A stretch of DNA of 64,000 nt from Acidihalobacter ferrooxydans (lineage in GTDB: Bacteria; Pseudomonadota; Gammaproteobacteria; DSM-5130; Acidihalobacteraceae). The notes under the pieces are model-generated. The model saw only the letters and a program-made list of their open reading frames with translations, did no database searches and had not been told where the DNA came from. The translations under genes and the position numbers were made by a program. The stretch is from NCBI RefSeq assembly GCF_001975725.1, contig NZ_CP019434.1, positions 1,079,041 through 1,143,040 of the forward strand. Direction: 5' to 3'. Within the stretch, counting starts at the first letter, position 1. Every line of letters starts with the position of its first letter. This document shows positions 17,100 through 63,160 of the stretch, piece by piece.

Positions 17100-17128
17100 G
17101 GGCTTTTGACCGGCTACAGCAAAGCGTT

Positions 17129-17160
17129 AAAAAAGACCCAAAAACGCGGTTTTTCGAAAA
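17129..17160. promoter_or_regulatory. Shared A-rich palindromic motif upstream of virB8
   Basis: The core AAAAAC-GCG-GTTTTT (17140-17154) is flanked by AAAAAAGACCC on the left and CGAAAA on the right. It lies between the terminator and virB8, 35 bp from the start codon, where a new promoter is needed. Near-identical motifs occur upstream of the parM-like gene (62106-62137) and the FlhD-like gene (49274-49305). Confidence 0.6.
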
Positions 17161-17194
17161 CCTATCACCCAAGCGCCTGCCGCATCATTTCGGC

Positions 17195-17827: not shown

Positions 17828-17828
17828 C

Positions 17829-27021: not shown

Positions 27022-27035
27022 CAGAGGCTTTCACC

Positions 27036-27638
27036 ATGTTTACGATCAATTCGAGCAAAACGCGCAAGCAGCAGGGTTTTACCCTGATTGAACTGCTCAT
27101 CGCGCTGGCGGTGCTGTCGGTCATCGTCGCCGGCATCGTGGTCTTTTTCAACCCCAGCAAGTCGAAGGGACAGACGCTGTATGCGTCCATGAGTGCCATT
27201 GGAAAGGCGGCGACCCGGTTTAACCTGGATACGAGCTGCTATCCGTACCAGACGAATCTGTTGTTTAGCAAAACCGCTGTTTCGGGCAATACGAACAATT
27301 CATGCGGTGTCGATGTATCGAGCACCTGGAATGGGCCGTACATCCAGTCCCGCCCGGTCAACGGCAGCGGCAATATCACCTATCCGCAGATTGGACAAGG
27401 TGTTGCGATCAGTATCGCAAGCGGTACCTTCCTCAGCAATGGTTTGTCGCCGCAGTATGCGGTTGAGGCAACCGGCGTGCCGGTCTCGATTGCGAAACAA
27501 GCGCTGCAGGCGTGTTCGGGTGGGTCTCCGACGACGACAAGCGGATCGTACACCATTGCAAGCAATTGCTTTACAACGACTCCGGCCAGCGGATCGAACA
27601 CGGAAACGTTCGGCCTGGTCTTTGCCTCCGGTAGCTGA
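27036..27638 (+). CDS. pilS: Type IV major prepilin (PilS-like)
   Basis: A 200-residue prepilin. The leader MFTINSSKTRKQQG ends in Gly and is followed by FTLIELLIALAVLSVIVAG, the class III cleavage site with Phe at +1 and Glu at +5. The mature part is about 185 residues with one Cys pair near the middle (SCYPYQ, NNSCGV) and two more Cys at the C-terminal third (QACSGG, SNCFTT), consistent with the disulphide-bounded D-region. Processing needs a prepilin peptidase, present at 44600-45475. An SD-like GAGG lies upstream. Confidence 0.88.
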   Translation: MFTINSSKTRKQQGFTLIELLIALAVLSVIVAGIVVFFNPSKSKGQTLYASMSAIGKAATRFNLDTSCYPYQTNLLFSKTAVSGNTNNSCGVDVSSTWNGPYIQSRPVNGSGNITYPQIGQGVAISIASGTFLSNGLSPQYAVEATGVPVSIAKQALQACSGGSPTTTSGSYTIASNCFTTTPASGSNTETFGLVFASGS

Positions 27639-28474
27639 TGCCCATGCACCGCCAATCGGGCTTCATGGCCTTGCTGCTGGTCTCCCTCATCGCCATCGTG
27701 TCGATGGCTGTCCTGGGCGCGTTTGCGGCGCGCCTGGGACTTGATGGGGCGCAGGCCACGACGCAGCGCGACCAGGACTACGTGAACCGGGCGGCGGCGG
27801 CGATTCAAAGCTGGTATGCCGCGCACCCGGTACAGATGGACGCCGGTGCGCAGCCATCCGTGCCGGGGTGTTCGGGGCCGGTGGGTCTGTGTTTGCTCAC
27901 GGCCGCCGGCATGAGTCCCCGGCATGGCGTGGTGGTGTCCGTCGGCGCGCAGCAAACGGCGCCTGGCGGAAACTACGCCTGGCGCACGATTACGGTCTGG
28001 ATTCCGAAGTCGAATGTGACCGGCTCAGCGCGCACGAACTACGCACCGGCTAACGCACGGGTTGTGTCGGCGTTCAGCGGGCGGCCTATCGAGCGGGCAT
28101 TCTGGGTCAGTGCCAACGAAACGTTGAATCGTCTGTCGGCCTCGTGGACGGCGGCGTATTCGGCCTGGCTGAGCAACACCGGCAATGCCGGGAATAACTG
28201 GTTTCAACCGCCAAGCTGCGGCTCGAACAATGGCGTGAATAAAAACATGGCCTGCGAGACGAAGTGGGCGGCACTGAATACCTCTGGATTTGAGGCGGCA
28301 ACGGGGGTGACCGTGCCGGCGGCGAATCCATGGGGGATGTCGATAGAGGTGTGCAATACCTCGGCCTGTGGCGCACAAGGGGCTTCGCCGCCTTTTACCG
28401 CGTTGCTGCGCACGCAAACCCCCTGGGGTGGCGTGATCGAACAAACCGTTGTTGAGCCGTTGACGGCAGGATAA
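27638..28474 (+). CDS. Minor pilin-like or pilus accessory protein
   Basis: A 278-residue protein starting MPMHRQSGFMALLLVSLIAIVSMAV: a short basic leader, Gly, then a hydrophobic helix, resembling a prepilin but lacking Glu at +5 (GFMALL), as do some minor pilins such as PilX/PilK types. The rest is exported-looking, with Cys residues (VPGCSG, GLCLL, PSCGSN, MACETKW, EVCNTSACG). It overlaps the end of the major pilin gene. I infer a pilus-tip or initiation role. Confidence 0.55.
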   Translation: MPMHRQSGFMALLLVSLIAIVSMAVLGAFAARLGLDGAQATTQRDQDYVNRAAAAIQSWYAAHPVQMDAGAQPSVPGCSGPVGLCLLTAAGMSPRHGVVVSVGAQQTAPGGNYAWRTITVWIPKSNVTGSARTNYAPANARVVSAFSGRPIERAFWVSANETLNRLSASWTAAYSAWLSNTGNAGNNWFQPPSCGSNNGVNKNMACETKWAALNTSGFEAATGVTVPAANPWGMSIEVCNTSACGAQGASPPFTALLRTQTPWGGVIEQTVVEPLTAG

Positions 28475-28488
28475 TCAGGAGACGTGTT

Positions 28489-29556
28489 GTGAGTCTTTTT
28501 ACGGGATGGATGGAACGCTGGCTGAGCAAGCAGCCGCCGGACTGGTCGGATATGTACCTGCGGCTCAATGAGCAGCCCATGATCAAGCGCGGCGGGACGC
28601 GACTGGTACTGGTTGAGGATGCCCCGCCGGTCAAGGAGGACGACCTGGAAGGGCTGGTCGGCGAGAAAGTCGATTGGTCGGGCGCTGTCGATATTGACCG
28701 CGGCGCGAGCATCGCGGGCTACCGTTTTCGCATCAACCTGCTGCGCAGGATGGGCCACGGCGCGGCCGTGTTGCGAAAACTGGAAACGCAGCCGCCTGAG
28801 CTGGAAAGCCTGGGCTTGCCCACGGATCTGTTGCGGCGCATTGCCCTGATGTCTCACGGACTGGTCATCATCGCCGGTGAGACCGGCTCGGGTAAGACGA
28901 CCACGCTCTCGGCGATGATGAACGAGCGGGCGCGTCAGCGTTCGACGACCACGGTCACGGTGGAAGATCCGGTCGAGATTCTGTTCCCGGAGGTCATGCA
29001 GAGCGCCGATGGCGGGCTGTCGCTGTTCGTGCAACGCGAGGTCGGGCGTGATACGGCATCGTTTACCTCCGGGCTGCGGGCAGCGCTTCGTGAGGCGCCA
29101 AACGTCATTACCGTGGGCGAGGTGCGCGACTCCGAATCCGCGCATCTGGCCTTGCAGGCGGCCGAGACCGGGCATCTGGTGTTCATGACGCTGCACACCC
29201 GCGGCGCGCGGGAGACGGTCTCCCGGCTGCTGGCGTTCTTCCCGGATGCACAACACGCGCTGGTTCGACAGCAACTCGCCTCGGGCCTGCGGCTGGTCTT
29301 GCGCCAGGTGCTGATCCCGGCTGTCGACGGCGGGCGCGTGCTCGCCTATGAACTGATGACCACGGATGGCGGGGTCGCCAACGCCATCGTCAAGCGACAG
29401 GAAACACAACTGCTCAACGAGATTACCGCGGGGCGCGAATACGGCATGGTGGCGCTGAACAATAATCTGGCGTCGCTGGTGCGCGAGAATCGTATCGAGG
29501 AAAGCGAAGCATTCCGGCACAGCTATGACCCGGAGGGTTTGCGTGAACTGCTCTAG
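28489..29556 (+). CDS. PilT/PilU-type pilus retraction ATPase
   Basis: A 355-residue ATPase starting at GTG 28489. Walker A is IIAGETGSGKTTT near residue 129, then TVEDPVEIL (Asp box), APNVITVGEVRDSESA (Walker B) and ETGHLVFMTLHTRGA (His box). There is no zinc tetracysteine, which separates PilT-like retraction ATPases from PilB/PilQ. R64-type conjugative pili are not known to carry such a gene (their pilT is a lytic transglycosylase), so a plasmid T4P with its own motor for retraction is notable. It sits between two pilin-like genes. Confidence 0.82.
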   Translation: MSLFTGWMERWLSKQPPDWSDMYLRLNEQPMIKRGGTRLVLVEDAPPVKEDDLEGLVGEKVDWSGAVDIDRGASIAGYRFRINLLRRMGHGAAVLRKLETQPPELESLGLPTDLLRRIALMSHGLVIIAGETGSGKTTTLSAMMNERARQRSTTTVTVEDPVEILFPEVMQSADGGLSLFVQREVGRDTASFTSGLRAALREAPNVITVGEVRDSESAHLALQAAETGHLVFMTLHTRGARETVSRLLAFFPDAQHALVRQQLASGLRLVLRQVLIPAVDGGRVLAYELMTTDGGVANAIVKRQETQLLNEITAGREYGMVALNNNLASLVRENRIEESEAFRHSYDPEGLRELL

Positions 29557-30667
29557 TCGGCGCCAACGGGGGTTTACCCTGATTGAGATATTGATCGCCA
29601 TCGGCCTAATGGCCGTGATGGTGGCCGTGTCCTACCCTATCTTCAATTCGATGCTGGTGTTCGGTCAGCAGCAAAAAACGCATGCGAGGCTGTTGCAGGT
29701 ACAGCAGGCGCTTACGCGGGCGTATGAAGACAATGCAATGACGGTGGATACCGACACCGGCGCGGCCTTTTGCGGCGCCGGGGCACACTGCGTGACGAGC
29801 ACCGCGTCGTCCAATACGCAACCGTCGGCGGTGTCCGCATCAAGCGCCCTGGGTGCTGGCACGGCAGCAGCCTTGGCCGCTATCGCGCAAGCGCAGGGCA
29901 TCAACACCCGGACGCTTGAGGTCGATGGTTTCGGCAAGTATTACCACTACTATGTGTCGGATAAGCTGACCTCGCAGTCCTGCACGAACTGCCCGCAGCT
30001 TTACTATCACGTCATTGCGGTCGTCTCCACCGGCGGCAAAAATGCCTTGTCGCCGAATACCCACTTCAACGCCAGCACCGGCCAGCTCACGCTTGGGACG
30101 GGCGATCAGGGTATTGTGGTCAGCGGCTTGCCCATCGAGCAGAAGTATGTCGATGAGACGATGAAGCAATTGCGTCGTGTCGCCGATGCCTACGGCCAGT
30201 TCTTCACGTTCCAATACCTGAACTCGTCCTCGCGCAATCCGTCGATTGATTATTTCAGTCAGCCGGATCAGAACGATATGACGAACAGCCAGAATTTCGA
30301 TGCCAGCAATCCGATCTGCAACAGCGGCAACCAGAATTGCGGGTATTCCTACAACGGTGTTCCGTACCCTGGAGAATACGGCACACCGCTTACAAACTCG
30401 GGGGTTCTCTTCTGGGACTGCCAGCCGGCCACTGTCCTGGGCGGCTTCATGGAATCCTTGGGGTTGACGCCGACCGATGTGATGACCCCATGGGGTTATC
30501 CCATTGGCGTGTGCAACGGGCCGAATGCGCCGGGGGCCGGGCTGCAGTCCATCAGAAACCCATCGAGCAATAGCACCGCGTTGCAGTCGCCGCCGTACAC
30601 GGCGGACATTGTGGCCTGGGCACCGGGCGGCACGCCGCTGGCCGTTTCCGTTGTGGGCAAGTATTAA
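29543..30667 (+). CDS. Prepilin-like protein with large C-terminal domain
   Basis: A 374-residue prepilin. The leader ends at SSRRQRG and is followed by FTLIEILIAIGLMAVMVAVS, with Phe +1 and Glu +5. GTG at 29543 is preferred over ATG 29525 because GGAGG sits 6 nt upstream. The mature domain is long (about 355 residues) and Asn/Ser/Tyr-rich, with Cys pairs (FCGAGAHCV, SCTNCPQLY, ICNSGNQNCGY). Size and composition suggest a tip adhesin pilin like PilV of R64 in role, but no shufflon segments follow and no clear homology is seen. It overlaps the retraction ATPase gene by 14 bp. Confidence 0.65.
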   Translation: MNCSSRRQRGFTLIEILIAIGLMAVMVAVSYPIFNSMLVFGQQQKTHARLLQVQQALTRAYEDNAMTVDTDTGAAFCGAGAHCVTSTASSNTQPSAVSASSALGAGTAAALAAIAQAQGINTRTLEVDGFGKYYHYYVSDKLTSQSCTNCPQLYYHVIAVVSTGGKNALSPNTHFNASTGQLTLGTGDQGIVVSGLPIEQKYVDETMKQLRRVADAYGQFFTFQYLNSSSRNPSIDYFSQPDQNDMTNSQNFDASNPICNSGNQNCGYSYNGVPYPGEYGTPLTNSGVLFWDCQPATVLGGFMESLGLTPTDVMTPWGYPIGVCNGPNAPGAGLQSIRNPSSNSTALQSPPYTADIVAWAPGGTPLAVSVVGKY

Positions 30668-30691
30668 TCGCACAAAAAGGAGTGCTTAACC

Positions 30692-31423
30692 GTGAACCAC
30701 AAATCTTTGTCAAACGTCACGCTTGCTATCAGTCTTGCCCTGTTCTCAGGTCTGGCGATGGCATCGGACACACCCAAGGCGTCTTCTACCGATCCGTTCT
30801 CGGGCCTGAGCGGCCAATACGAATCCCTGACGCAGCAGGCGCTAAACGCCAGCGTCGAGCAAAAGCTGATTCAGGCGCAGTACCAGATTGCCTTGTATAA
30901 GCACAAGCTGGCAGCGATGAATCACGAATCGAGTGCGGCGGCTGGTCCCTCCAAGGCGGTAAAAAAACTGGAAGCGCAAATCAGCGCGCTGAGCGGGCAG
31001 GTGGCGGCGTTATCGTCCGCGCACGCGAAGCAGACAAAAACGGTGCAGCAGGCACCGCGCCCGTCACCGCTGGCGCATGTTCGTCTGGTGGGGATTTCGA
31101 CCACTGCGGCCGGGAAGCGCGTCGCGTTCGTCAAGCTCGGCAATGGAAAAATCGAGCGCGTCGAACAAGGCGCGCGGATACACGGACAAGCGGTCTCGTC
31201 CATCGGCGCAGATTCGATGAGGCTCGGTACGCATCGGTTGCCGCTGGCGAGCGATTACGGGCAGGTCAAAATCAGTGATGCGGTCGCAGCAAGTAACGGC
31301 TCAAACAGCCCTTACGGCGGATCTGTTCCCCCGGCGCCTGGCTCAACACCGGCATCGGCCCAGGCGATGCAACAACAGGGCGCGTCGCAGATTTCGCAGG
31401 CGCTTCAGAGTGGTGGCGGTTGA
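30692..31423 (+). CDS. pilP: PilP-like type IV pilus biogenesis protein
   Basis: A 243-residue secreted protein starting at GTG 30692, preceded by AAGGAG. The signal peptide ends near GLAMAS. A helical, coiled-coil-like region (residues 45-110) with ALSGQVAALSSAHAKQ precedes a small beta domain: VRLVGISTTAAGKRVAFVKLGNGKIERVEQGARI, as in R64 PilP and relatives, which bridge the inner-membrane complex and the secretin. A low-complexity Pro/Ser/Gln tail ends the protein. It closes the pil operon; 200 bp without genes follow. Confidence 0.75.
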   Translation: MNHKSLSNVTLAISLALFSGLAMASDTPKASSTDPFSGLSGQYESLTQQALNASVEQKLIQAQYQIALYKHKLAAMNHESSAAAGPSKAVKKLEAQISALSGQVAALSSAHAKQTKTVQQAPRPSPLAHVRLVGISTTAAGKRVAFVKLGNGKIERVEQGARIHGQAVSSIGADSMRLGTHRLPLASDYGQVKISDAVAASNGSNSPYGGSVPPAPGSTPASAQAMQQQGASQISQALQSGGG

Positions 31424-39699: not shown

Positions 39700-41220
39700 A
39701 TGATTGATGAGGTCATAGGGATGATAGAAGCTGCAGCGCTTGCCCAATCCAGCTACTTAAGCAACAAGCCTGAAATCGAACGCAAGAGTCTGGGTCAATA
39801 TTTCACTGGTGCTCCCGTGGCCGATTATATGGCCTCCATGATTGAGCCGGTTGATACGCCAGTTGTTCGTATCTTAGATGCTGGGGCCGGGGCTGGAATA
39901 CTCACAATATCGGCAGCTCTTCGTTGTATTGAGATTGGTAACAACCAAGTGCATGCGGTTCTCTATGAGATTGACAGCGACGCCATCGCACACTTGGAAG
40001 CAAACATGAAACAGGTCGCCCAGCAGTTCCGAAAGCAAGGGGGCCAGTTCACATTTGAGATTCGTCACGAGGACTTTGTTCTGTCCAGGCCGGACAGGAC
40101 CGAGGCACCATTCCATGTGTGCTCGATCAATCCGCCTTACTTCAAGTATAACTCCAAAACCTCGCCCTACGCCGGGGCCACTGCAGACCTATTCAAGGGT
40201 AACCCCAATATCTACGCCTCGTTCATGGCCGTTGTGGCCACCTGTCTGGCCCCCAAGGGTCAGATGGTGGCTATCGTTCCCCGCAGCTTTACCAATGGCC
40301 TCTACTTCAAGGGCTTTCGCCACTACCTGAACCAGACAATGAGCCTGGACAAGCTGCATATCTTCCGGTCTCGGGATAAGGTCTTCAAAGAGCTGTCGGT
40401 ACTGCAGGAAAACGTCATTTGCAGCTACACCAAGCACCACCAGTCGGCGCGAATTGAGGTGCGCACTTCTACCGGCTACGAGGATTTGGGCCAGGTTGAA
40501 ACCCATCGCTACCCGGCCAAGCTGTTGATCGACACCACCAACGAGCATGAAATTATCCGCATCCCTGAATCGACCAAGGATGCCGCCATACTGCAGACCG
40601 TGGAAGGGTGGCCCTCCAGCTTTCAGGAAAACGGCTATTTCATTTCAACCGGCCCAGTTGTCGAGCATCGCACCAGGGAGTACATCACCACACCGGATCA
40701 CAAGACGGGCAGTGTACCTTTGCTACGCATGCACAATATCAAGCCCTTCAAGACCGTGTGGACCGGAAAAAACAAGAAGGACGCTCGCTTCCAGCTACTG
40801 GACGGCCACTACAAACATACCTCGGACAATCAGCCCTATGTAATCCTGAAGCGATTCAGCTCGAAAGACGAAAAGCGCCGCCTGGTGGCAGGCGTTCACG
40901 ATCCGCAGGTCATCAAAGGTAAGCTGATAGCCTTGGAAAACCACCTGAACTACATAGGTCATGCCGATGGAGAGATGGATTTGGCAGAAGCCTACGGCCT
41001 GGCCGCTCTGTTCAATTCCACGTTTATGGATAAATACTTCCGCTGCATTTCCGGTAACACACAGGTGAACGCAACCGAAATCAGGCTGTTAAAGCTGCCG
41101 ACCAGGGAAGTCATTCACCAAGTGGGGGCCGCCTTCCTGGAAGGGGCAGAAGCGGATCAGCAGCACATTGACAGCATTGTCAATTTTCATTTGGAAGTGA
41201 AGGAATCAGCCGTCGCATGA
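39700..41220 (+). CDS. Type II DNA adenine methyltransferase (BsuBI/PstI-type)
   Basis: A 506-residue N6-adenine methyltransferase. [18 protein letters not shown] is the usual start of this class; the AdoMet-binding motif I is [12 protein letters not shown] near residue 65 and motif IV is NPPY ([11 protein letters not shown]) near 142. The C-terminal half serves target recognition. Paired with a BsuBI/PstI-type endonuclease, it presumably protects a PstI-like site (CTGCAG); the exact site is inference. It overlaps the endonuclease gene by 4 bp. ATG 39700 is used; no strong SD is visible. Confidence 0.9.
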
Positions 41221-42191
41221 GCAAAGAACAAAAACTGAAAGAAGCACAGGAGCTGCTTAAAGCCTTGGGGCTGCCAAAGAAGCAGTACAACCAGCGCTCA
41301 GCCTGGGTTTTCCTGGCGCTCGCCAATATCCGGCCACAAGACGATTGGAAGAATGCGCAAGCCCCTATGCTGCCCACCGTGGATATTATGCAGTTCATCC
41401 GCGAGCACTACGGCCAGGACTACAAGCCCAATTCCAGGGAAACCATACGACGCCAGACGCTGCACCAGTTCGAGCAAGCCCGGATTGTCGATCGGAACCG
41501 GGACGATCCGTCCCGGCCCACCAATAGCAAGGACAACAATTACTCACTGAACCAGCCCATCATCGACGTGCTGAAGGAATACCCATACGATGCCTGGCTG
41601 CAGAAAATCGAGGAATACAAGGAGGACCTGCACAACCTCCAGGAACTCTACCAGCGCAAGCTGGATATGGAAAAAATCCCGGTCCGGCTGCCCAGCGGGC
41701 AGGAAATCAAGCTATCTCCGGGCAAGCACAACCAGTTACACGCCGACATCGTGCACGAATTCTGCCCCCGGTTTATCGGGGAATCCGGCCTCGTACTGTA
41801 TATCGGTGACACGGCCAGCAGCCGGAACGAAGGTGGCAAACTCCTAGTGCTGGAAGCGGCACAACTGGAAGCCATAGGCGTTCCACCCATGTCCCACGAC
41901 AAGCTGCCCGATGTTGTGGTATACGACGAAAAGCGGGAATGGCTATTCCTGATCGAAGCGGTCACCAGTCACGGCCCGGTATCCCCAAAGCGCTGGATCG
42001 AGCTAGAAAAGGCCCTGGAAACCTGTAAGGTTGGCCGGGTCTATGTGAGCGCCTTTCTTAACACTGCAGAATTTCGTCGTCACGCGGCGGATATCGCCTG
42101 GGAAACAGAAGTCTGGATCGCGGAAAACCCCGATCACATGATCCACTTCAATGGTGATCGTTTTTTGGGGCCTCATGAGAGAAAAGAGTAA
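41217..42191 (+). CDS. BsuBI/PstI-family type II restriction endonuclease
   Basis: A 324-residue endonuclease. The N-terminal part (residues 1-130) is a helical/winged-helix region ([31 protein letters not shown]). The C-terminal catalytic domain shows [20 protein letters not shown] near 195, [20 protein letters not shown] and [10 protein letters not shown], with the PD-(D/E)xK-type residues Asp and Glu-x-Val in the strand pair. These blocks are characteristic of the BsuBI/PstI family (PF06616). It is coupled to the methyltransferase upstream (4-bp overlap) and to the transposase downstream (1-bp overlap, TAATG). Confidence 0.92.
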
Positions 42192-45475: not shown

Positions 45476-45581
45476 CGTGTTCAATCGCGCCGGTGCGTCA
45501 ACCGACGACGTTGCCCATGCCGATGAATCAACTGGCCGACCCAATCAAGGCGGCGACTCGACCCAGCAGCAAGGCGTCGGC

Positions 45582-45950
45582 TCAGCATTGCATATCCTCA
45601 GCAACGAGCTGCTCGATTTCGCCAAGCGCGCTTGCGACGTTCTTGAACGGCCACGTCGCAAAGACCTGCAGTTGCCGGTAGCGCAGCAGGATGAGCGGCG
45701 TATAAAACACCATGCGAGCGATGCTCACGGGTCGCTCGATGAGCGTGATGGTCACCAAGCCGGATTCGTCGGCGCTCATTTCCAGGCTGACCTCCGTCAA
45801 CGGCTTGTTGTTCACGCTCACGCGTTGATTGAGCCATTGCGCCATCAGGTCGGCAATCTTCTGCAACGTATGCCGGCCAACAGGCTTTGCCAATTGCTCC
45901 CTGAGTGCCGCGTTTTGCGGACTCCAGATAAACACCGTGGATCGTTTCAC
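45582..45950 (-). CDS. Hypothetical protein
   Basis: A 122-residue protein (MKRSTVFIWSPQNAALREQL, LMAQWLNQRVSVNNKPLTEV, LITLIERPVSIARMVFYTP). No signal peptide, helix bundle or known family is seen. It overlaps the NERD-domain gene upstream by 4 bp, so both are read from one transcript and may function together. The next gene on the strand, the prepilin peptidase, follows after 106 bp. Confidence 0.5.
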   Translation of the reverse strand: MKRSTVFIWSPQNAALREQLAKPVGRHTLQKIADLMAQWLNQRVSVNNKPLTEVSLEMSADESGLVTITLIERPVSIARMVFYTPLILLRYRQLQVFATWPFKNVASALGEIEQLVAEDMQC

Positions 45951-46519
45951 GAAAGAGACCTCTCGATAATGCGTTTCAAAAATCGCTCCCGTCCCATAAT
46001 GACAAGAACGCCCTGATAAACGAATGCCTTCTCGCGCTTGGATAAGGGCATCCAGAGCACCGCGCGCGCACCAATGCTGGACGCTTCACGGCGCGTCTGC
46101 GCGGCCGGGTCTTTGTTCAATGGCTGCCCGTTGAGCTTGACCAGCCCGCCTTTGCCTGGGCGCAGTCCGTGCCAGCTTTTGATCTCAATCGCGCAACGGT
46201 GATTGGCCGACACCAGCAAGGCATCGATGTCGCCACCGCTCGGGCAGGGCACATTGCATTGGACGCGAAACCGGCTGCGCTTGAAGGCCCGCTTGAGTGC
46301 CTTCTGGGCGCGCTTCTCAAGACGTTTGCCGAAAACCCGGACACGGTATGACCGGTAATGTTTCCACGCGAATGCTGCACACGCAATGGCAAACAACACG
46401 AGGTAATAGGACTGGATGCGCAGTGCGAGTGCCGCCGACAAGGCGGCGACGAAGGTGGCGCCGGTCATCCAGACGAGGTCCCTGAGCCAGGGTCTGTAAA
46501 GTGCGTTGGGTGTATACAT
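45947..46519 (-). CDS. Membrane-anchored NERD-domain nuclease-like protein
   Basis: A 190-residue protein. N-terminal hydrophobic helices (LVWMTGATFVAALSAALAL, YYLVLFAIACAAFAW) are followed by a basic stretch (KRLEKRAQKALKRAFKRS) and a NERD domain: GGDIDALLVSANHRCAIEIKSWHG, in which D-x-D and E-x-K match the restriction-nuclease-like core, and AAQTRREASSIGA. NERD proteins are predicted nucleases in DNA processing or defence. ATG 46519 is used; the longer frame would begin at TTG inside the helicase gene. Confidence 0.7.
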   Translation of the reverse strand: MYTPNALYRPWLRDLVWMTGATFVAALSAALALRIQSYYLVLFAIACAAFAWKHYRSYRVRVFGKRLEKRAQKALKRAFKRSRFRVQCNVPCPSGGDIDALLVSANHRCAIEIKSWHGLRPGKGGLVKLNGQPLNKDPAAQTRREASSIGARAVLWMPLSKREKAFVYQGVLVIMGRERFLKRIIERSLS

Positions 46520-46559
46520 GCTCAGAATAACAACACGACGCCCGATTAACGCAAGCGCC

Positions 46560-48254
46560 TCACGCTTCTTCGCACTCGGCAAAGAACCGAGATGCCACGG
46601 ACTTGTTGTCCAGGCTGTAGGAGAGGTGCAGCTGATCCTTGGCGCGAGTCAGGCCGACGTAGAACAACCGGCGTTCTTCATCAAGAGGGGCCTCGACATG
46701 GGGAACGTGTCCGTCTTCGCAGCCCATGATCCATACCCGTTCCCATTCCAGCCCCTTGGACGAATGCAGGCTGGCAAGCACCGGTAGGGTCTGGGCGGAT
46801 GTATCCTTGACCTTGTTCCTGGCGCGCTTGATGAATTGCACCCGGCGCTCAAGAGAACCGTCCAGGCGCGCCATGTGCAGTAAGGCCGGGCCAATAAGGG
46901 CGAGCGCCCTTTTGTGCAGATGCTTTTCGCTCCAGATGGCGATTGCCCGCAGTACGAGATCCGCGCGCTTGGCCTGCGGGCTCAATTGCGCCCACTGGGG
47001 GGCCACGGCGACCAGTTCGCGCAGCCCTTTGTGCTCGGGTTTCTCACCGTCGTGGATACGCTGGATGTCGTCCTGTTCGACTTCATCCACAAGCGCGCCG
47101 ATCCGGGCGATACCGGAGCCCAAATCCGAGCGGAACAGGTCTTCCACAAATGCCAGGAGCGCCGCCGGTGGCTTGTGGTCCCAGAAGGATCGGCCACCTA
47201 ACCGGACAACGGAGATAGAACGTGCGCTGCAGGCGAGCTCCAATAAATCGAGCCGTCTGTTGGTGCGGGCAAGAATGCCCCATTCACCGGGCGACTCGCC
47301 GAGAAAAGCGGCAACGGCATCGGCTTCGGCGACCTTGGATTCAAAGGCGTGCGTAACGACCGGTGTGTCATAACCGTTGGTTGGACGCTTCGCTTTGATG
47401 CGCTTGTCAAACCGTTCGGTGTTGTGCGTAATCAGGCGCTGACTGTGCGCGACAATGCGCGGGTCGCAGCGATAGTTTGCTTCGAGCACGAAACGCCGGG
47501 CTTGTGCATCGCGCTCGAAGCGGGTGAGCCCTGCATAGCCCAGCGCATGCCGCCACCCGTAAATAGACTGATCGTCATCGGCCACCAGGGTCACTTCGAC
47601 GCCTGCTTTGAGATGCTCGCTAATCCATGCAAACTGGACATCGTCCATGTCCTGCGATTCATCGACCAACATCCAGCGCACCCCCAGGGGTGGAACGCGG
47701 CCCTTGCGCATGCCGTCGACGGCATTGATTAGGATGTCCTGAAAATCCACGAGCCGGTGTTTCTTGATTTCCGCCTGGTAGGCGCGAAACACCCGTGTTT
47801 CGTCGCCATCGCGCGGCGGCGGGGCCATCGTTGACTTGAACCGGTCGATGGCGCCGATGGCGGCCTCCACTGGCATATCAACCCCGGTCGATTGCAATGC
47901 CCGCAGGATGTAGTGGACACGCCCGGATTCGTCGAGTATGCGTTTACGGTGGGTTCCGGATTGCTGCAAGGCCAGGGCATGAAAGGTGCCGGCCAACACC
48001 CGGCCGGCGAACCCTGACCCGATTCGATCAAGCAGTTCCGTTGCCGAGTCTCGCGTAAAAGAGACCGCGACCAGATTGCCCGCCGACTCGGTGTCGAGCA
48101 GATGCCGAGCCTTGGCGCTCAGAAGGCGAGTCTTGCCACTACCAGGGCCGGCCAGCACGAGGCTGTGCCCACGCGCCAATGCAGCGGCGCGCTGGGAGTC
48201 GTCAAGCCCCTGTAGTGCATCTGACACGGCATTAGGCCGAAGCGGCCGCGACAT
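46560..48254 (-). CDS. UvrD/Rep-like superfamily 1A DNA helicase
   Basis: A 564-residue helicase. GLDDSQRAAALARGHSLVLA is the Q-motif region, Walker A is AGPGSGKT near residue 36, motif Ia VAVSFTRDSATELLDRI, motif II MLVDESQDMDDVQF, motif III LVADDDQSIYGWRHA, motif V LHSSKGLEWERVW and motif VI RRLFYVGLTRAKDQLHL. At 564 residues it is smaller than UvrD (about 720), lacking parts of the 1B/2B inserts. ATG 48254 overlaps the end of the upstream gene by 23 bp. Probably unwinds DNA during conjugal or rolling replication of the element (inference). Confidence 0.9.
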   Translation of the reverse strand: MSRPLRPNAVSDALQGLDDSQRAAALARGHSLVLAGPGSGKTRLLSAKARHLLDTESAGNLVAVSFTRDSATELLDRIGSGFAGRVLAGTFHALALQQSGTHRKRILDESGRVHYILRALQSTGVDMPVEAAIGAIDRFKSTMAPPPRDGDETRVFRAYQAEIKKHRLVDFQDILINAVDGMRKGRVPPLGVRWMLVDESQDMDDVQFAWISEHLKAGVEVTLVADDDQSIYGWRHALGYAGLTRFERDAQARRFVLEANYRCDPRIVAHSQRLITHNTERFDKRIKAKRPTNGYDTPVVTHAFESKVAEADAVAAFLGESPGEWGILARTNRRLDLLELACSARSISVVRLGGRSFWDHKPPAALLAFVEDLFRSDLGSGIARIGALVDEVEQDDIQRIHDGEKPEHKGLRELVAVAPQWAQLSPQAKRADLVLRAIAIWSEKHLHKRALALIGPALLHMARLDGSLERRVQFIKRARNKVKDTSAQTLPVLASLHSSKGLEWERVWIMGCEDGHVPHVEAPLDEERRLFYVGLTRAKDQLHLSYSLDNKSVASRFFAECEEA

Positions 48255-49089
48255 CCTTGCCGGTGTCGTCGTCAATGTCACCTGACTGTTCGGCGTCCGA
48301 TTCGCTATCGACGGCGGGCGATTCGTTCTCGTCCGCTTCTCGAATAGTCTGCGCAACCGCATCAACCGCCTCGCGTACACGCGGGTCGGTTTGCTGCGCC
48401 TTGATGCCTTGAATCAGCTTGTCAAACAGCGCTGGCTCTTGCGCCGTAGCGCCGCTCAGGACTTCGAATACATCGGGCGCATGTTCGGCCAGGTACGTTC
48501 CGGACTCTCCCCACGCCTGCGGCGTTGGTTTTGGGTTGTGATGCGCTTCCTTGGTTTTGGTTTCCTGGAAGGCCTGTGTGACGGCCCGCTGGATTTGACG
48601 CACGGTTTCCACTAACGGAGCGCGTGCTTCAACCACCGCGTTGCGCTTGTCAACCACCGAACCCAACTCTTCGATGATCCAGTTCATTTCGATGAGCATC
48701 AGCGCCTCATCGCATTGCCCGTACAGCTTCAGAAGACGGTTGCTCCACGGCGTGGTAATGGGGGCATCGAATTCAATGCCCTGTGACAGGCTGTTCGAAT
48801 CCGGCTCGACACCGGCCGCCTCAAGACGCTCTTTCCATTGCTTCGTAATCGCGCTGAGCTGCTGCGCGGCTTTCTCAAGCGAGACTTTGAAAAGCTCTTC
48901 GATGCGCATGATTTCGTCGTCAGTGTCCTCATTGACGCGCAAGCCCTGCACCGAAGCCATGCGGGCGGAGGCCGTGTCAAAAAAACGCTGGTAATGAATC
49001 TGGGTGATGTTGTGATGCAGCGTGACTTTCCGGGTCATTGCCACGGGGTAGCTGATCTGCAGTTCTTTGCGTCGATTGGGTCTAGCCAT
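48232..49089 (-). CDS. AcaB/DUF1845-like conjugative-element protein
   Basis: A 285-residue protein starting MARPNRRKELQISYPVAMTR; ATG 49089 is preferred over the longer frame and has GGTGGAA-like purines upstream. Blocks KVTLHHNITQIHYQRFFDTA and PWSNRLLKLYGQCDEALMLIEMNWIIEEL resemble DUF1845/PFL_4669-type proteins of integrative conjugative elements, which include the AcaB activator of IncA/C plasmids. The tail is acidic. It is divergent from the FlhD-like gene, across a region holding one shared A-rich motif, which supports a place in transfer control. The family call is moderate. Confidence 0.45.
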   Translation of the reverse strand: MARPNRRKELQISYPVAMTRKVTLHHNITQIHYQRFFDTASARMASVQGLRVNEDTDDEIMRIEELFKVSLEKAAQQLSAITKQWKERLEAAGVEPDSNSLSQGIEFDAPITTPWSNRLLKLYGQCDEALMLIEMNWIIEELGSVVDKRNAVVEARAPLVETVRQIQRAVTQAFQETKTKEAHHNPKPTPQAWGESGTYLAEHAPDVFEVLSGATAQEPALFDKLIQGIKAQQTDPRVREAVDAVAQTIREADENESPAVDSESDAEQSGDIDDDTGKDVAAASA

Positions 49090-49273
49090 GGTCAGTTCCA
49101 CCTTTTTGCGAATGCGAATGCGAATGGGCATGTGAGGTCTGTCGACCTTCGGGCATCAGCATGGCTTAGACACTGCGCTAGGTGCCGAGCAAATAACGGT
49201 CCATAAAGGCCGTTTTCAAAGGGCGCTTGCGTTTTTCTTTTAATCCGTACCCTTGATCACGAGGCAACTTTCG

Positions 49274-49305
49274 AAAAAGGCCTCAAAACGACGGTTATTT
49301 GAAAA
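49274..49305. promoter_or_regulatory. Shared A-rich palindromic motif upstream of FlhD-like gene
   Basis: The sequence runs AAAAAGGCCTCAAAACG, then ACGGTTATTTGAAAA. It aligns with the motifs at 62106-62137 and 17129-17160. It lies 63 bp before ATG 49368, in the divergent intergenic region, so it could control both directions. Confidence 0.5.
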
Positions 49306-49367
49306 TCAACTCATCGGGTTAAGACATTAACGTGTCGATTAATCACTTAATGGCAAGGAGCGCCTTT

Positions 49368-49997
49368 ATGCACGATAGTCAGCAGCGATTGCTTACCTGC
49401 TTTTTGCGGTCACTCAGTGATAGCGCGGATCGGACGGGCGTCGAAGCGGCCGGCCGGTTCTGGCACGTACCGACAGAGCTGGCCGACGCGTCGAGGAATC
49501 GGCGCAGCGCTCAAGCCATTGACGCCGCGGTGCGCGATTACGCAAATCGGGCACTGGGTGTCCGTCTGCTGTTTCAGCCACATGAGCTTGCGTGGCTACG
49601 CCGGGCTTTTTTGACGGGCGACTATGAAGGCCACCCAAACCCTGACCGGGAGCCCGCCGAAAGAATGGCGGTCTCTTTGGTCGTGCGGTCCGCGTTGATG
49701 GGCGCGCATGATCTGGCGCTCAGGCATGGCGTGTTATACGCCTGCCTGCGTTATGCCTTGCCATATTCGTTCATGAAGACACTCACCGCATTGCCTTGCG
49801 AACAGATCAATGACGTGGCTTTGAGATATGCGCTTTCGATGAATATTGGGCTTCGCTTTACACGCGCCGAGCAAACATGGCTTTGTGCCGCGTTGCGCGA
49901 TTCACAAGAGATCCCCGACCTTTCCCGAAATGATGATGGCAACCGGCTCGCGGGGCTCATCCAATCCATTGTCAGCGCTGGGGGAATCCGTCTATGA
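49368..49997 (+). CDS. FlhD-like putative transfer activator subunit
   Basis: A 209-residue protein. ATG 49368 is chosen because AAGGAG lies 7 nt upstream. The segment LRYALPYSFMKTLTALPCEQINDVALRY, with a helix-loop-helix and a conserved Cys, recalls FlhD (GI-x-x-E-x-A-x-x-L-x-x-L), though the protein is longer than FlhD and its N-terminal 120 residues are unassigned. Its gene overlaps by 4 bp a gene with clearer FlhC features, as in flhDC and in the setDC and acaDC activators of SXT and IncA/C elements. The role as a master activator of transfer is inferred from this pairing. Confidence 0.45.
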   Translation: MHDSQQRLLTCFLRSLSDSADRTGVEAAGRFWHVPTELADASRNRRSAQAIDAAVRDYANRALGVRLLFQPHELAWLRRAFLTGDYEGHPNPDREPAERMAVSLVVRSALMGAHDLALRHGVLYACLRYALPYSFMKTLTALPCEQINDVALRYALSMNIGLRFTRAEQTWLCAALRDSQEIPDLSRNDDGNRLAGLIQSIVSAGGIRL

Positions 49998-50294
49998 GCA
50001 CAACGATTGAAAAGCTGCTACCGCAATTAACTCTGATTGACGACCTGGTCAAATGGAAGATGCGCCGTTCGTATTGGCGGGTCATGTTCAGCCCACTGGA
50101 ACCGAATGACCGCGCTTGGTTACTGAGTTACGTCGACCGGAAGTGGCGTGACATCCATGGGCAATGCTCGCCAAAGGGACAATTGCCGCTCAACGCGGTC
50201 GGCAGCGTCAACAGCCGTTTCAAGGCACAGCATTTGGCCGCTGCCTATAACGCGGTGATTTACGCGGCGCACCATGAAATCGACCCGGCCTACC
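49994..50294 (+). pseudogene. 5' part of FlhC-like activator gene, split by IS copy 2
   Basis: The frame encodes MSTTIEKLLPQLTLIDDLVK to HHEIDPAY. The block RDIHGQCSPKGQLP matches the FlhC signature HGR-x-P-x-KGQLP-x-S. The gene enters the IS at ACC (50294). Excising 50295-52127 rejoins it in frame to APIYNLRALHEGYSTYLATL at 52128, giving a 256-residue protein. Confidence 0.65.
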
Positions 50295-50373
50295 AAAAGG
50301 CGCCGCAGTGCTCCGCCTGTAACCGCGTAGCGGTTCAGGGGGTGGTGAAGCGGCGCTATCGCTCGTAGGGCGA

Positions 50374-50790
50374 TTATTCCGGCCTTTCCTGTTGTTCGAT
50401 GTATTGTTTGAGCACGGACAGTGGAGCGCCGCCCACGGTCAGGATGCAGTAACTGCGGCTCCAGAATACCGGCTTGCTCCAGTAGTATCGTTTCAGGTGT
50501 TCGGCAAACTCTTTGCGCAACAATCGGCTGGTGACCGTTTTCAGGTTGTTCACAAATGCCGAGGGCAACACCTTGGGCGTCAACGCCAGAAGAAGATGCA
50601 CATGATCTGCTTCGCCGTTAAATTCCAGGACCTCGCACTCCCATTTCTCGGCCGTGTTGCGGCAGATCGCCTCCAGACGGTCCAGCATGGGGCCTGTCAT
50701 GCACCTGCGGCGATATTTCGTGACCAGAACCAAATGATAGTTAAGGTTGTAAACGCAATGATGCAAAGTACTTAGCGATTGCGTCGTCAT
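50374..50790 (-). CDS. tnpA: IS200/IS605 transposase TnpA, copy 2
   Basis: A 138-residue Y1 transposase identical to copy 1 except for one residue (Met instead of Leu in RRRC-x-TGPM). The HUH motif ADHVHLLL and the Tyr in LKQYIEQQ are intact, so it should be active and could also mobilise copy 1. Confidence 0.93.
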   Translation of the reverse strand: MTTQSLSTLHHCVYNLNYHLVLVTKYRRRCMTGPMLDRLEAICRNTAEKWECEVLEFNGEADHVHLLLALTPKVLPSAFVNNLKTVTSRLLRKEFAEHLKRYYWSKPVFWSRSYCILTVGGAPLSVLKQYIEQQERPE

Positions 50791-50813
50791 GGTAACCAAG
50801 TATAATTGGCGTT

Positions 50814-52109
50814 ATGCCGAACCGCAAAGTGACCTATCGCCTGTATCCCAATACCGAGCAAGAAGCACGGCTGCAGGACAGGCTGAGTTTGCATCAGCGC
50901 CTTTACAACGCGGCGCTGGAAGGGCGCATCCGCGTGTAGAAAGAAACCGGCAAGGGCCTGTCGTGTGCTGACCAATGCAAGGCACGCACCCAAAGGCGCA
51001 AGAACAGCGCCGGGTTGCGGTCGATGAATGCCCAGTCCGAGCAGGTCACGCTCAAGCGCCTGGATCGGGCTTTTCGGCATTTCTTCCGACGGGTGAAGAA
51101 TGGCGAAATGCCAGGCTTTCCGAGATTCAAGAGCCTCCACCGTTATTCAGGCTGGGGCTACAAGACCCACGGCGACGGCTGGAAACTGCACCCCGGCGAG
51201 AGCGGAAAACACGGCAGGCTGTATCTGCAAGGCGTCGGCCTTGTACCGGTGAGCGGCAAGGCGAGGACGCAGGGCGAATGCAAAACGTGCGAGATTCTGC
51301 ACAAGGCTGGCAAGTGGTATGCGTCAGTCACGCTCGAAGTCGAAGCGATACCGCGTGAACGTGGTGTCGAGACCTGCGCGTTCGATTGGGGCCTTGAGAC
51401 GTTTCTGACCGTCGCCACGCACCAGCAGGGCATCGAGACCGTACCCAATCCCCGCCATCTCAGGCGCCAGTTGACGGAACTCAAGCGCCTTGGACAAGAC
51501 GTGTCACGGAAAATCCGCATGGCGCAGACAATCAGCGGCCGAAAGAAACACTTCCCCGTCTCCAGGCACCTGCGCAAAGCCATTCAGCATCTGGCCCGAT
51601 TGCACGCCAAGATAGCCCGAAGTCGCAAAGACTTCCTGCATCAAACCAGCGCATGGCTGGTGAATCGCTTTGGCGCCATCGCCACAGAGGCATTGGACGT
51701 AAAGAACATGGTGCATCACGGCGGCGCACGCAAAAGAGGGCTCAACCGTGAGATTCATGCCGCCGCGCCGGGCGCTTTCCTCAAACTGACCAGGACCAAA
51801 GCGGAAGAGGCTGGGTCGTGGTATGAGGAAGCGCCGACGCGGACGCTCAAGCCCACGCAGCGCTGTCATGCCTGCTGGCGCTTGCCGGATGAGAAGAAAA
51901 CGCTCTCGGATCGCTGGCATCAATGCCCGCATTGTGGCGCCGCCTGTAGCCGGGACGAGAATGCGGCGCGGGTGTTGTTGCGTTGGCTGAAAATGAGACT
52001 GGCCGGAGAATCCGGCTCCGGGCGGGAACCGTCCGAGGCGTGGAGCGGGATAAGACCATCGGAGACGATGGCACCTGCGTTGAAACGCGAAACTCACGCC
52101 ATACCGTAA
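50814..52109 (+). pseudogene. tnpB copy 2, interrupted by a nonsense codon
   Basis: From ATG 50814 the frame matches copy 1 for 41 codons and then meets TAG (50937-50939), where copy 1 has TAC for Tyr. The remainder, including the RuvC residues and zinc ribbon, stays open to 52109 and could only be translated from an internal start (for example TTG 51015 or ATG 51024). About nine further substitutions in the first 190 codons alter the N-terminal domain, whereas the last 1.1 kb differs at only about three codons. Confidence 0.85.
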
Positions 52110-52127
52110 GGTTGGCGGGAGTAGTTC

Positions 52128-52597
52128 ATGCGCCGATCTACAACCTGCGGGCGCTGCACGAAGGCTATTCGACGTATCTGGCAACGCTGCATGGCAACAA
52201 GAGCGGCCCCATGATTTCGGTTGAGCAGGTATACCGAGCGCTGCTCGATACACACGAATGGCATAAGTGCCAGGAACATCATGTGCCATGGGCCGGTGCG
52301 ATACCCGTTTATTGTTCGAACCGACGTACCTGCGACCTTCATGGCGCTTTGTTTCTCTATTCGTCGACCCGATCAAGTACGAACAGCTGCCCCTTCTGTG
52401 GGTGCTCTCCCAGGTTCCCCGAAGACCACGGGAAGCACACGATAAAAACTCGGCAAAATGGGCCGAAGAGGGACAAAGCGGGCCAAAAAACAACCGATTC
52501 GGGCACGATGGTGATCATCAATCCAGAAGAAGGGACGAAACGGCCCGGAACGGCCCTGGTCTGCTTGCCCCCTGGTGAAGCGTCACCTGATCCATGA
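52128..52597 (+). pseudogene. 3' part of FlhC-like activator gene
   Basis: In frame with 49994-50294 after excision of the IS. It encodes LRALHEGYSTYLATL, then CDLHGALFLYSST and SCPFCGCSPRF. FlhC has a four-ligand zinc site made of two C-x2-C pairs near its C-terminus; here the pair appears as C-x2-H and C-x2-C. About 45 residues of low-complexity sequence follow, so the natural end may differ. Confidence 0.55.
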
Positions 52598-52700
52598 AAT
52601 CGATGCCATCCCCGGTCTTCACACCGCATCCAAGCGGCATTCAAACGCGGCGGGAAATTGATCGGTTGAGGTGGCTCGTTCATGCCTCCTAAACCGGAAT
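52598..52700. other. No recognisable gene
   Basis: A short gap after the FlhC-like pseudogene. It ends at the palindrome that opens the repeat region. Confidence 0.35.
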
Positions 52701-52718
52701 TTTCTCGTACACGAGAAA
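52701..52718. repeat. Perfect palindrome at the edge of the oriT-like region
   Basis: TTTCTCGT-AC-ACGAGAAA, 8-bp arms with a 2-bp centre, directly before the four-copy repeat. It could be a relaxase or accessory-protein site or a repressor operator. Confidence 0.5.
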
Positions 52719-52725
52719 TCCCTGT

Positions 52726-52957
52726 TTGTCCTAGTATTGTCTGGAAAAACAGACTTTAGCGTAAATATGGGTTGCAGAGTGAAACTGGCCTTTCTCTCAG
52801 TATTGTCGGAAAAACCAGTGTTTATGGTATATTCGGTCTGACGAAAGAAAGTACGGGTTTGTTTAGTATTGTCGGAAAAACACGTGTTTGACGTAGCGCT
52901 CTGCGCGAAAAAAGAAAAAGGCGGTTTGTCCTAGTATTGTCGGAAAATCAAGAAATC
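52726..52957. repeat. Four phased direct repeats (66-68-bp period), candidate oriT or centromere
   Basis: A core of about 22 bp, of the form TTTGTCCTAGTATTGTC followed by GGAAAAACA, occurs four times. AGTATTGTC starts at 52733, 52799, 52865 and 52933, giving steps of 66, 66 and 68 bp (over six helical turns). Cores vary slightly; the intervening 40 bp do not match one another, apart from short GTGTTT after two of them. The array lies just upstream of a MobI-like gene. In SXT and IncA/C elements oriT lies immediately upstream of mobI, so an oriT or relaxosome-protein array is the leading interpretation. Confidence 0.75.
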
Positions 52958-53103
52958 CCGTAACGCCGAATGCCAAAAATCCCAAAGATACTAGGGAGGG
53001 AGAAAACAGCCGTTGACTTTCCGCTCAATTGGGTCGAATCGGGAAATCCCGCAGCGCGTAAGAGTCGTAGACGCACGGTGTCGGTGGTAACAGGAGCACG
53101 CAC

Positions 53104-53589
53104 ATGCAAGACGAGATGCAGCGAATCAAGGCGGACCTGGTGAAGCGGGCGACCGCGATAGCCGAAGATTTCATGTCGCGGCGCACGGGTAAGGGGCGCG
53201 GGCCTGATCAATGGTCTGACCTATTCGTGAAGGTCTCCAGCACGGATACGGGGATAGTGGTTGACTGGCGCTACCGTCATTGGTATCGGCCGAAGGATGG
53301 GGGTGCGCCGAAGAACATGCTGCGGTATTTGCCGGAGAATCGGGTGACGCGATTAGCGCAGGATTGGGAGCGGGATGAAGTGACGTGGGTTCGGGATGCG
53401 CTGCGGGTATTGAAGGAGAGCTACCGCGAGCTGACGAAGCTGGAGAAGAAGCTGGGTAAGGCGGGTGTGATGGGGGACGAAGCCGACATGCTGACGGGCT
53501 TCGTCCCGGTCAGGCAATCAAAGGTCAGCCCCATTAAAGCCGAGCTTGCCAAGGACAAAGGCGAAGGTCGCCGCGCCAAACATGGGTGA
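53104..53589 (+). CDS. MobI-like conjugative mobilisation protein
   Basis: A 161-residue cytoplasmic protein, strongly charged, starting MQDEMQRIKADLVKRATAIA. Blocks FMSRRTGKGRGPDQWSDLFV, IVVDWRYRHWYRPKDGG and WERDEVTWVRDALRVLKESY lead to a basic C-terminus. Size and pattern resemble MobI of SXT/IncA/C elements, an auxiliary relaxosome protein required for transfer, and the position downstream of a repeat array fits. The family call is tentative, as no hallmark residue set is known to me. Its 3' end overlaps the convergent membrane-protein gene by 72 bp. Confidence 0.45.
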   Translation: MQDEMQRIKADLVKRATAIAEDFMSRRTGKGRGPDQWSDLFVKVSSTDTGIVVDWRYRHWYRPKDGGAPKNMLRYLPENRVTRLAQDWERDEVTWVRDALRVLKESYRELTKLEKKLGKAGVMGDEADMLTGFVPVRQSKVSPIKAELAKDKGEGRRAKHG

Positions 53590-53808
53590 GAAGATCAGCG
53601 CCACCAGGTCGCCCCAGAGGGGGAGGTAGAACATGCCTTTGGTGAGCGAGTGGACGGCGAGGCCGAAGGCCATGCCCAGAGCGTTGGGCCAGAGGTAGCG
53701 AAGCGGGTGTTCCCAGAGCAGTCCGCGGTCGAACTCGCGGTTCTCGTTGATCGGAACAAAGCGTGCGGCCATCTTCAGGATGGTGCTTTCAAAGCGGTCG
53801 ATGGTCAT
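53518..53808 (-). CDS. Small membrane protein of unknown function
   Basis: A 96-residue protein (MTIDRFESTILKMAARFVPI, WPNALGMAFGLAVHSLTKGM, LPLWGDLVALIFSPMFGAAT). Two hydrophobic helices are separated by a short loop. GGAG lies 8 nt before its ATG, supporting real translation. It converges with the MobI-like gene, overlapping its last 72 bp. It may be a small entry-exclusion or pilus-related protein; nothing in the sequence decides. Confidence 0.6.
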   Translation of the reverse strand: MTIDRFESTILKMAARFVPINENREFDRGLLWEHPLRYLWPNALGMAFGLAVHSLTKGMFYLPLWGDLVALIFSPMFGAATFAFVLGKLGFNGADL

Positions 53809-53879
53809 TGGAAGTTCTCCATAATGATTGGTAGAGCCATTTCAACACGGATTGTGGAAGACGCAAGCACGGCTGCAAG

Positions 53880-62197: not shown

Positions 62198-63160
62198 ATG
62201 TACGTCATTGCCCTGGATATCGGGTATGGAAACAACAAGCGCGCGATTGGACACGACGCCGACGCAAGTCCTCGTCTTGATCAATGGCCGTCGGTGATTG
62301 CGCCTGAGCGCACTCGCCACCTCTCGGTCAATGGTGATGCAGGCAGCGGTCGACTTGTGCGGTTTAACAACAAAGGCTGGCTGGTTGGCGTCGACCTTGA
62401 AGAGCCTGGTGCGCAAGACGTGCTGCACGAAGACTATGTCGGAAGTGACGACTGGCTGATTCACCTGCTGGCCGGGCTGCAGGGCATACCGACGGGTGCG
62501 CAGGTCCTGTTAGTCGTCGGGCTGCCGGTGGACGAATGGATGCTGGGCGCGCACAACGAAAAGCTGCGTAGCGCCTGCGAGCGTGGCGCCAAAGAAGCCG
62601 GTATCAACCTCAAGGCCATCAAAATCGTCCCGCAACCGCTGGGCGCGTTTGTCGATGCAAACGCCCGCTGTGACGGCCTCCTGGTCAAGCGGCGCGTCCT
62701 GGTGGTTGATCCGGGTCGCTACACGCTCGACTGGACGCTGTTCGTCAACGGCAAGCTCAATTCAGAGGGTTCGGGTTCGGACCGGCGCGGCGCGGTCAGC
62801 CGCATCATCGAAGGCGTTGCTAGGGAAATCCAGACCGGATTTGGGGCCAAGGTGGGCTATGGACGTATCCGCAAGGCGCTCGAAGACGACGGAGTCATCG
62901 TCATTCGCGGCCAGCAGGTGGACTGTAAGAACCTGATTCAGGGTGTCAGCGCCCAGGTCGTTGACGAAGCCATGTCACGCATTCGCGAGACGCTGCGGGT
63001 GGAAGACGACGTAGACCGCATTGTGCTGGCCGGCGGTGGTGCGCGGTTCTATCAGCCGCGCCTGGAAGAGACCTTTGGCGCCGATTTGCTGGATGTCGCG
63101 CCGCGGCCGGTACAGGCGAACGTCAGAGGCTACTGGCTCTATGGCTCGCACAGCGTCTGA
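62198..63160 (+). CDS. parM: ParM-like plasmid segregation ATPase (actin fold)
   Basis: A 320-residue actin-like protein. The phosphate-1 motif is ALDIGYGNNK at the N-terminus, followed by VGLPVDEWM, the PQPLGAF block near 146, phosphate-2 VLVVDPGRYTLDWTLF near 169, and the adenosine motif IVLAGGGARFY near 275. These define ParM/StbA/Alp-type filament proteins that push plasmid copies apart. The next two genes overlap in series and probably include the adaptor. The upstream 140 bp may hold the centromere and promoter. Confidence 0.85.
   Translation: MYVIALDIGYGNNKRAIGHDADASPRLDQWPSVIAPERTRHLSVNGDAGSGRLVRFNNKGWLVGVDLEEPGAQDVLHEDYVGSDDWLIHLLAGLQGIPTGAQVLLVVGLPVDEWMLGAHNEKLRSACERGAKEAGINLKAIKIVPQPLGAFVDANARCDGLLVKRRVLVVDPGRYTLDWTLFVNGKLNSEGSGSDRRGAVSRIIEGVAREIQTGFGAKVGYGRIRKALEDDGVIVIRGQQVDCKNLIQGVSAQVVDEAMSRIRETLRVEDDVDRIVLAGGGARFYQPRLEETFGADLLDVAPRPVQANVRGYWLYGSHSV

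Follow-up and report, generated by a model that had tools for sequence, protein, structure and literature searches.

A pair of overlapping genes, here called D and C, in a 64,000-nucleotide stretch of the Acidihalobacter ferrooxydans genome (the window, G000:C1:1079041-1143040, where G000 is the host genome, a single contig of 3.45 Mb) is best read as a deeply diverged FlhDC-like activator of the SetCD/AcaCD type, with a C subunit gene disrupted by an insertion sequence (IS) and with conjugative transfer probably silent. We place the probability of this reading at roughly three in four. Positions are those of the window unless given as genome positions. The pair and the inserted element comprise the following features.

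49368-49997, + strand: D subunit gene (FlhD/AcaD-like), 209 residues; the FlhD-like unit is the C-terminal half (residues 98-209), and the N-terminal half is possibly a second, diverged unit.
49994-50293, + strand: 5' piece of the C subunit gene, codons 1-100; the actual open reading frame (ORF) extends to 50368, its last 24 residues being IS-encoded.
50294-52129, no strand assigned: IS200/IS605-type element of 1836 bp with hairpin ends, splitting C after codon 100; one of four ~99% identical full copies in the genome.
50374-50799, - strand: tnpA, Y1 transposase of 141 residues (Pfam Y1_Tnp, 1.3e-42), open in all four copies.
50814-52109, + strand: tnpB (OrfB_IS605, 1.1e-17; Cas12f1-like_TNB, 3.2e-10), interrupted by an in-frame TAG at 50937-50939 and open in the other three copies.
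52130-52597, + strand: 3' piece of the C subunit gene with a Cys/His cluster (TCDLH ... CPFC), assigned by the joined frame and by homology to relatives.

The C gene is split by an IS200/IS605 element

D comes first, preceded by AAGGAG, and on the same strand the C-like ORF starts at 49994 inside the end of D, in an ATGA that gives the 4-bp overlap described in an earlier sequence-only reading of this DNA. That reading had also placed the block HGQCSPKGQLP and a C-x2-H/C-x2-C cluster on either side of an IS200/IS605 element, and we indeed find HGQCSPKGQLP in the 5' piece, with TCDLH (C-x2-H) and CPFC (C-x2-C) past the IS. The limits of the element were fixed by aligning its four full copies (match at least 99%: window 50290-52131 and genome 1114844-1116681, also in the window, 1170697-1172538 and 1180115-1181955), giving a left junction of CTAC/CAAAAGG and a right junction of TTCAT/GCGCC. 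The left flank is CTAC in three copies and CAAC in one, without a target duplication, and both ends form hairpins, the left with a z of -4.5 (folding equalled by 0 of 200 shuffles) and the right with a z of -3.5 (1 of 200). The Y1 TnpA, the hairpin ends and the lack of a target duplication place the element in the IS200/IS605 family, and IS608 and ISDra2 of that family share these features as well as TnpB, the subterminal position of the hairpins and similar left flanks. In ISDra2, however, tnpA and tnpB overlap on one strand (PMC8612924), whereas here they are divergent and this tnpB is broken. Nine of the 11 differences private to the copy in C fall within ~140 bp near the start of tnpB (50860-51000), one of them being the TAG. 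The IS ends also have short and diverged counterparts that lack the body (G000:C1:1117147-1117220 and 1178913-1178966, and L035 ~13164-13216), possibly remnants or non-autonomous derivatives.

Removing the IS in a script joins the flanks into a single frame, as had been claimed, of 255 codons; the 256 residues given earlier are reached only by counting the stop. Among six cuts tried, that at 50293 gives 255 codons and that at 50290 gives 254, the remaining four running into early stops, and a 3-nt ambiguity at the junction leaves the frame unaffected. Unexcised, the sequence encodes a truncated C product of 124 residues; its 24 IS-encoded residues (50294-50368) include CSAC, a C-x2-C that is probably there by chance.

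When the 5' piece was searched against 95 genomes, three matched, namely the host's own and two of the same family (G002 and G004). In both relatives C is uninterrupted, with 277 residues in the same frame, and lies after a 127-residue D and before mobI, with a gene for a 299-residue protein divergent from the pair. Upstream of the IS, 85 residues align with window C at 41% identity (BLASTP E 3e-22), and downstream of it 89 residues do so at 27% (E 2e-7), with the cysteines of the terminal cluster in register. A different frame in uninterrupted relatives had been named beforehand as one of the outcomes that would tell against the split gene, and because these two read through in the same frame, the split is more than chance. 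That it is an artefact of assembly, or that the two ORFs are unrelated, is hardly credible: IS repeats can mislead assembly, and this copy differs from the other three by its clustered changes in tnpB, but the flanks are unique, the genome is a single contig, the frame is exactly restored and homology to the relatives lies on both sides.

Within the host genome the C profile finds only the two window pieces and no other copy of the gene. Wider profile searches brought no new relative, either in 369 genomes, where three matched (the host itself, G002 and G188, the last at E 0.0045 and carrying three stops), or in 398 genomes, where the host's own was joined by four at 14.5-17.9 bits, three of these with stops. 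Plasmid searches by tblastn gave no match with the C piece, D, the 299-residue protein or MobI, and one record at E 0.6 with a relative's C; scans of sequence collections returned 15, 21 and 97 pattern matches with no relative among them. Used as a search hook, the 299-residue gene was present in 6 of 369 genomes, and the 15-20 kb stretches around the four distant ones among these held no relative of D or C (best E 0.59 and 0.55). A search of PDB sequences with a relative's C gave a single chance match (E 1.3).

The pair groups with FlhDC and AcaCD at the profile level

The Pfam models for FlhC and FlhD are described as unsuitable for SetC and AcaC (PMC4542580), and the acaC region of the IncC plasmid pSN254, which is frameshifted according to PMC4207636, reached 19.3 bits against the Pfam model, below its 27-bit cut-off; we therefore compared profiles. 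Comparisons were made with hhalign, with significance taken from 100 column shuffles. The C family profile comprised the two full relatives and the two window pieces, and the FlhC set eight proteins; from the FlhC and FlhD sets L051 and L062 were left out as near copies of L050 and L058, and L056 is the same locus as L049. Against the eight FlhC-family proteins the C family reached a probability of 94.6 and a score of 56 (shuffle maximum 19.5, 0/100), and the C proteins of the two relatives alone still scored 45.6 (0/100). The C family scored 30.0 against AcaC with two homologues (maximum 23.2, 0/100) and 23.3 against two E. coli-type FlhC (maximum 18.3). The D family profile scored 34.5 against six FlhD proteins and 30.0 against AcaD and two homologues, neither score being reached by any of 100 shuffles. 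At the level of sequence profiles, the C family belongs together with FlhC and AcaC, as the D family does with FlhD and AcaD.

Taken singly, the window sequences give weaker results than the family profiles in these kinship tests. The C-terminal half of window D is significant against a profile of 15 units (0/100 shuffles) and, by Smith-Waterman alignment, against a relative's D (0/2000), yet its score against FlhD is reached by 7/100 shuffles, that of window D against AcaD by 9/100 (not significant), and BLASTP of window D against a relative's D is not significant (E 0.20).

In the relatives D is a single FlhD-like unit of 127 residues, whereas AcaD of IncC plasmids (P0010, L075 1503-2111; 202 residues) has halves that align with each other at a score of 78, against a shuffle mean of 25 (0/2000), and also at profile level (0/100). 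From its sequence AcaD is plainly a tandem duplication of the FlhD-like unit, a point that no paper listed in one literature search for it names in its title or at the opening of its abstract, and that may still be published. For window D a similar duplication is suggestive only. It resembles AcaD in length, and a low-confidence model of it has helices in a repeated arrangement, but the evidence on its N-terminal half is mixed: shuffles reach its score against a profile including the C-terminal half in 0/100 cases, against the C-terminal half alone in 3/100 (215/2000 by Smith-Waterman), against the relatives only in 3/100, against the 15 units in 13/100, against AcaD units in 17/100 and against FlhD in 21/100.

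Mobilization genes in the context of the pair

The window contains further features that bear on the kind of element to which the pair belongs.

48232-49131, - strand: conserved element gene, 299 residues, divergent from D and in the same place in G002 and G004.
52725-52952, no strand assigned: four direct repeats between C and mobI, with core AGTATTGTCGGAAAA, 66-68 bp apart; candidate origin of transfer (oriT)/MobI region.
53104-53589, + strand: mobI-like gene, 161 residues (Pfam MobI 29.7 bits, cut-off 26.6).
62198-63160, + strand: ParM/actin-like partition gene, 29% identical to ParM/StbA of pSN254 (E 7e-35).
12677-31423, + strand: type IV secretion system (T4SS) and type IV pilus cluster, with VirB4/TrbE, VirB6, VirB8, VirB9, VirB10, secretin, T2SSE, T2SSF and pilins.

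SetCD and AcaCD lie in the context of MobI, an SrpRM-like ParM and a lysozyme-like gene (PMC4542580), and the host has a corresponding set in MobI, the ParM-like protein and an SLT protein (L066 272-742), the last not adjacent to the pair. It also carries an SXT/IncC-like mobilization module outside the window, at about genome 1188677-1193061, with a MobH relaxase (NF041494, 260.9 bits; cut-off 200), an SXT-type TraD (TIGR03743, 516.7 bits; cut-off 366) and DUF4400 (PF14348, 35.8 bits; cut-off 27). All six of these genes are open frames, as are the VirB-like genes of the window. The F-type TraG_N (PF07916) is absent from the host genome and from G002; it occurs in pSN254, in G003 (G003:C2:89015-90406) and in G004 (G004:C1:2841178-2842605). 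Because this mark of an F-type mating apparatus is missing, we call the pair SetCD/AcaCD-like, and not a strict member of the SetCD/AcaCD element family. In G004 the TraG_N gene lies 1.3 Mb from the D-C pair, and other conjugative elements may exist in the family.

Comparison with the individual systems gives a similar picture. AcaCD of IncA/C plasmids (P0010/P0011, p39R861-4; PMC4207636) also has D before C with a 4-bp overlap, a D of ~200 residues and a terminal cysteine cluster of AcaC that ends in CPFC, in elements with an SLT protein, ParM, MobI and a MobH relaxase; it differs in that the sequences are barely alignable (the score of 30 and the 9/100 above), in the F-type TraG_N that the host lacks and in the window having mobI directly after C. 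SetCD of the SXT/R391 integrative and conjugative elements and of Rts1 (PMC4344509, PMC10838148) is likewise FlhDC-like and belongs to MobH elements that carry MobI, an SXT-type TraD and DUF4400/TraJ, but with a different mating apparatus; the likeness seen here is one of pair and context. With the flagellar master regulator FlhDC the SP.GQ.P region and the terminal cysteines align in the profile comparison.

Plasmids do carry genes of the FlhC family, in the form of flagellar flhDC (a query of that family matched 36 records), and with a T4SS of another type in the window the pair could be an FlhDC-like regulator that is only a passenger on the element and acts on a target other than conjugation, for instance motility or cargo genes. 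We regard this as improbable, in that all three genomes have mobI and its upstream repeats next to the pair and a ParM-like gene at a greater distance, and no flagellar genes were seen among the neighbors.

An activator of the SetCD/AcaCD type is expected to need both subunits for transfer and to bind at the -35 region of transfer promoters. Several observations weigh against assigning the window pair to this type. No activator target boxes were found. The Pfam and NCBIfam models for FlhC and FlhD do not match the pair even at E 10, and the PF05280 profile finds nothing in G000-G004, so that the assignment made in the sequence-only reading stands on profile comparison and gene context and gains no support from these models. 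The profile scores are themselves modest, the alignments are shallow and the C family amounts in practice to two lineages. Single-sequence models of D and of the N-terminal piece of C have mean predicted local distance difference test (pLDDT) values of 55 and 52, too poor to read a fold, and a PDB fold search with the D model gave no match at E <= 0.001. The window T4SS is VirB/Trb-like, whereas F is the type given in PLSDB for the four SetCD/AcaCD-type plasmids examined. Self-transfer of an element with an intact pair is presupposed. Finally, ~60 kb separate the pair from the relaxase and TraD genes, whose homologues on G002 contig C4 (71 kb), with that of DUF4400, stand in a different order; a single element is therefore an assumption, as is the service of the window T4SS to the same element as the pair. 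A sigma-70-like promoter was also sought at 49050-53200, and none was found.

Beside the pair, the window contains a BsuBI/PstI-type restriction endonuclease and methyltransferase (39700-42191) and an ISL3 transposase.

Candidate oriT repeats and a second mobI locus

The oriT of Rts1 adjoins mobI (PMC10838148), and in G002 and G004 the core of the window repeats occurs as an inverted pair (found with a repeat tool in the window and G004, and by eye in G002). As 3/100 shuffles reach the four core matches seen in the window with up to three mismatches, it is the spacing and place of the repeats, not their count, that support a candidate oriT. The repeats were also considered as activator boxes and for now rejected as such, because with up to one mismatch the core is confined genome-wide to the window mobI locus and to 2652289-2652504, and because CCTAGTATT lies only before mobI in the examined loci of G002 and G004.

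The second of these loci (genome 2651363-2653692) is a deleted relative of window 45578-46109, 46491-46900 and 52460-53868. Over 901 bp its repeat-mobI tract (~2651620-2652520) is identical to window 52716-53616, with 0 differences between loci 1.5 Mb apart, although in the flanks 17.4%, 11.0% and 14.7% of the columns are mismatched, with indels. The simplest reading is a conversion tract or a recent exchange of a repeat-mobI cassette; an assembly error may also account for the identity. Beside this mobI copy (L046 975-12134) are a type III methyltransferase and a ResIII protein, forming a type III restriction-modification pair, and an IetA/IetS-like pair, possibly a defense passenger of the element.

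The deleted copy at 2.65 Mb, the second IS copy and ISL3 transposase in the window and the gene order rearranged relative to G002 could also signify that the whole region is a decaying element in which the IS insertion is one neutral lesion among many. This is possible but on balance unlikely, given the open relaxase, TraD, DUF4400, MobI and VirB-like genes and a repeat-mobI tract that is identical at two loci.

Probable loss of the activator and its possible reversal

Under the preferred reading, D and C would form a heteromeric FlhDC-like activator with which a large MobH/MobI element turns its transfer genes on, and by analogy would act together on DNA at transfer promoters, recruiting sigma-70 polymerase. 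Insertion after codon 100, with the N-terminal region on one side and the cysteine cluster on the other, would remove the cluster part and inactivate the activator. Both acaC and acaD are essential (PMC4207636), deletion of setC or setD abolishes Rts1 transfer (PMC10838148), and IncA/C plasmids with a frameshifted acaC are reported to be non-self-transferable (PMC4207636). Because no second C copy was found in the genome, we infer that in this isolate the activator is probably non-functional and self-transfer switched off. The earlier suggestion of silencing was thus a fair one on the basis of the single C copy and the acaC precedent; the transfer state itself follows by inference.

The break in C would in principle be reversible, because TnpA is open, the IS ends are intact and such elements excise precisely. 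Regulation by excision had been proposed as well, and the open TnpA with intact, folding ends would permit it in principle. Among the papers listed in one literature search, no title or abstract opening names a case of an IS insertion in a SetCD/AcaCD-type activator. Phase control, in which the IS excises in a subpopulation and transfer is on in those cells, we consider quite improbable: TnpA is open in all four copies, the ends fold better than nearly all shuffles (0/200 and 1/200 fold as well) and gene-restoring excision is known for ISDra2 (PMC2806898), but the assembly shows the filled site and no empty one, and tnpB of this copy is broken. More speculative still, and very improbable, would be an RNA-guided lock. 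In ISDra2, TnpB and an RNA from the right end together cut the rejoined site (PMC8612924); here, TnpA excision would restore C and turn transfer on in rare cells, and TnpB, provided by the three copies in which it is intact and directed by right-end RNA from the copy in C, would cut the rejoined gene and bring the insertion back. The 2.65-Mb locus would be served by this activator and MobI as well, and its restriction-modification and IetAS-like defense genes could travel as passengers.

If the pair is indeed a SetCD/AcaCD-type activator, FlhDC-like control of conjugation would extend to a lineage too divergent for standard models, and would there accompany a DNA-processing set of the SXT type, next to a VirB/Trb-like apparatus with a type IV pilus set. 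The isolate would then represent a natural activator knock-out next to transfer genes that are open, and two relatives keep an intact pair; were IS excision to prove true, this would be a case of transposon-controlled conjugation.

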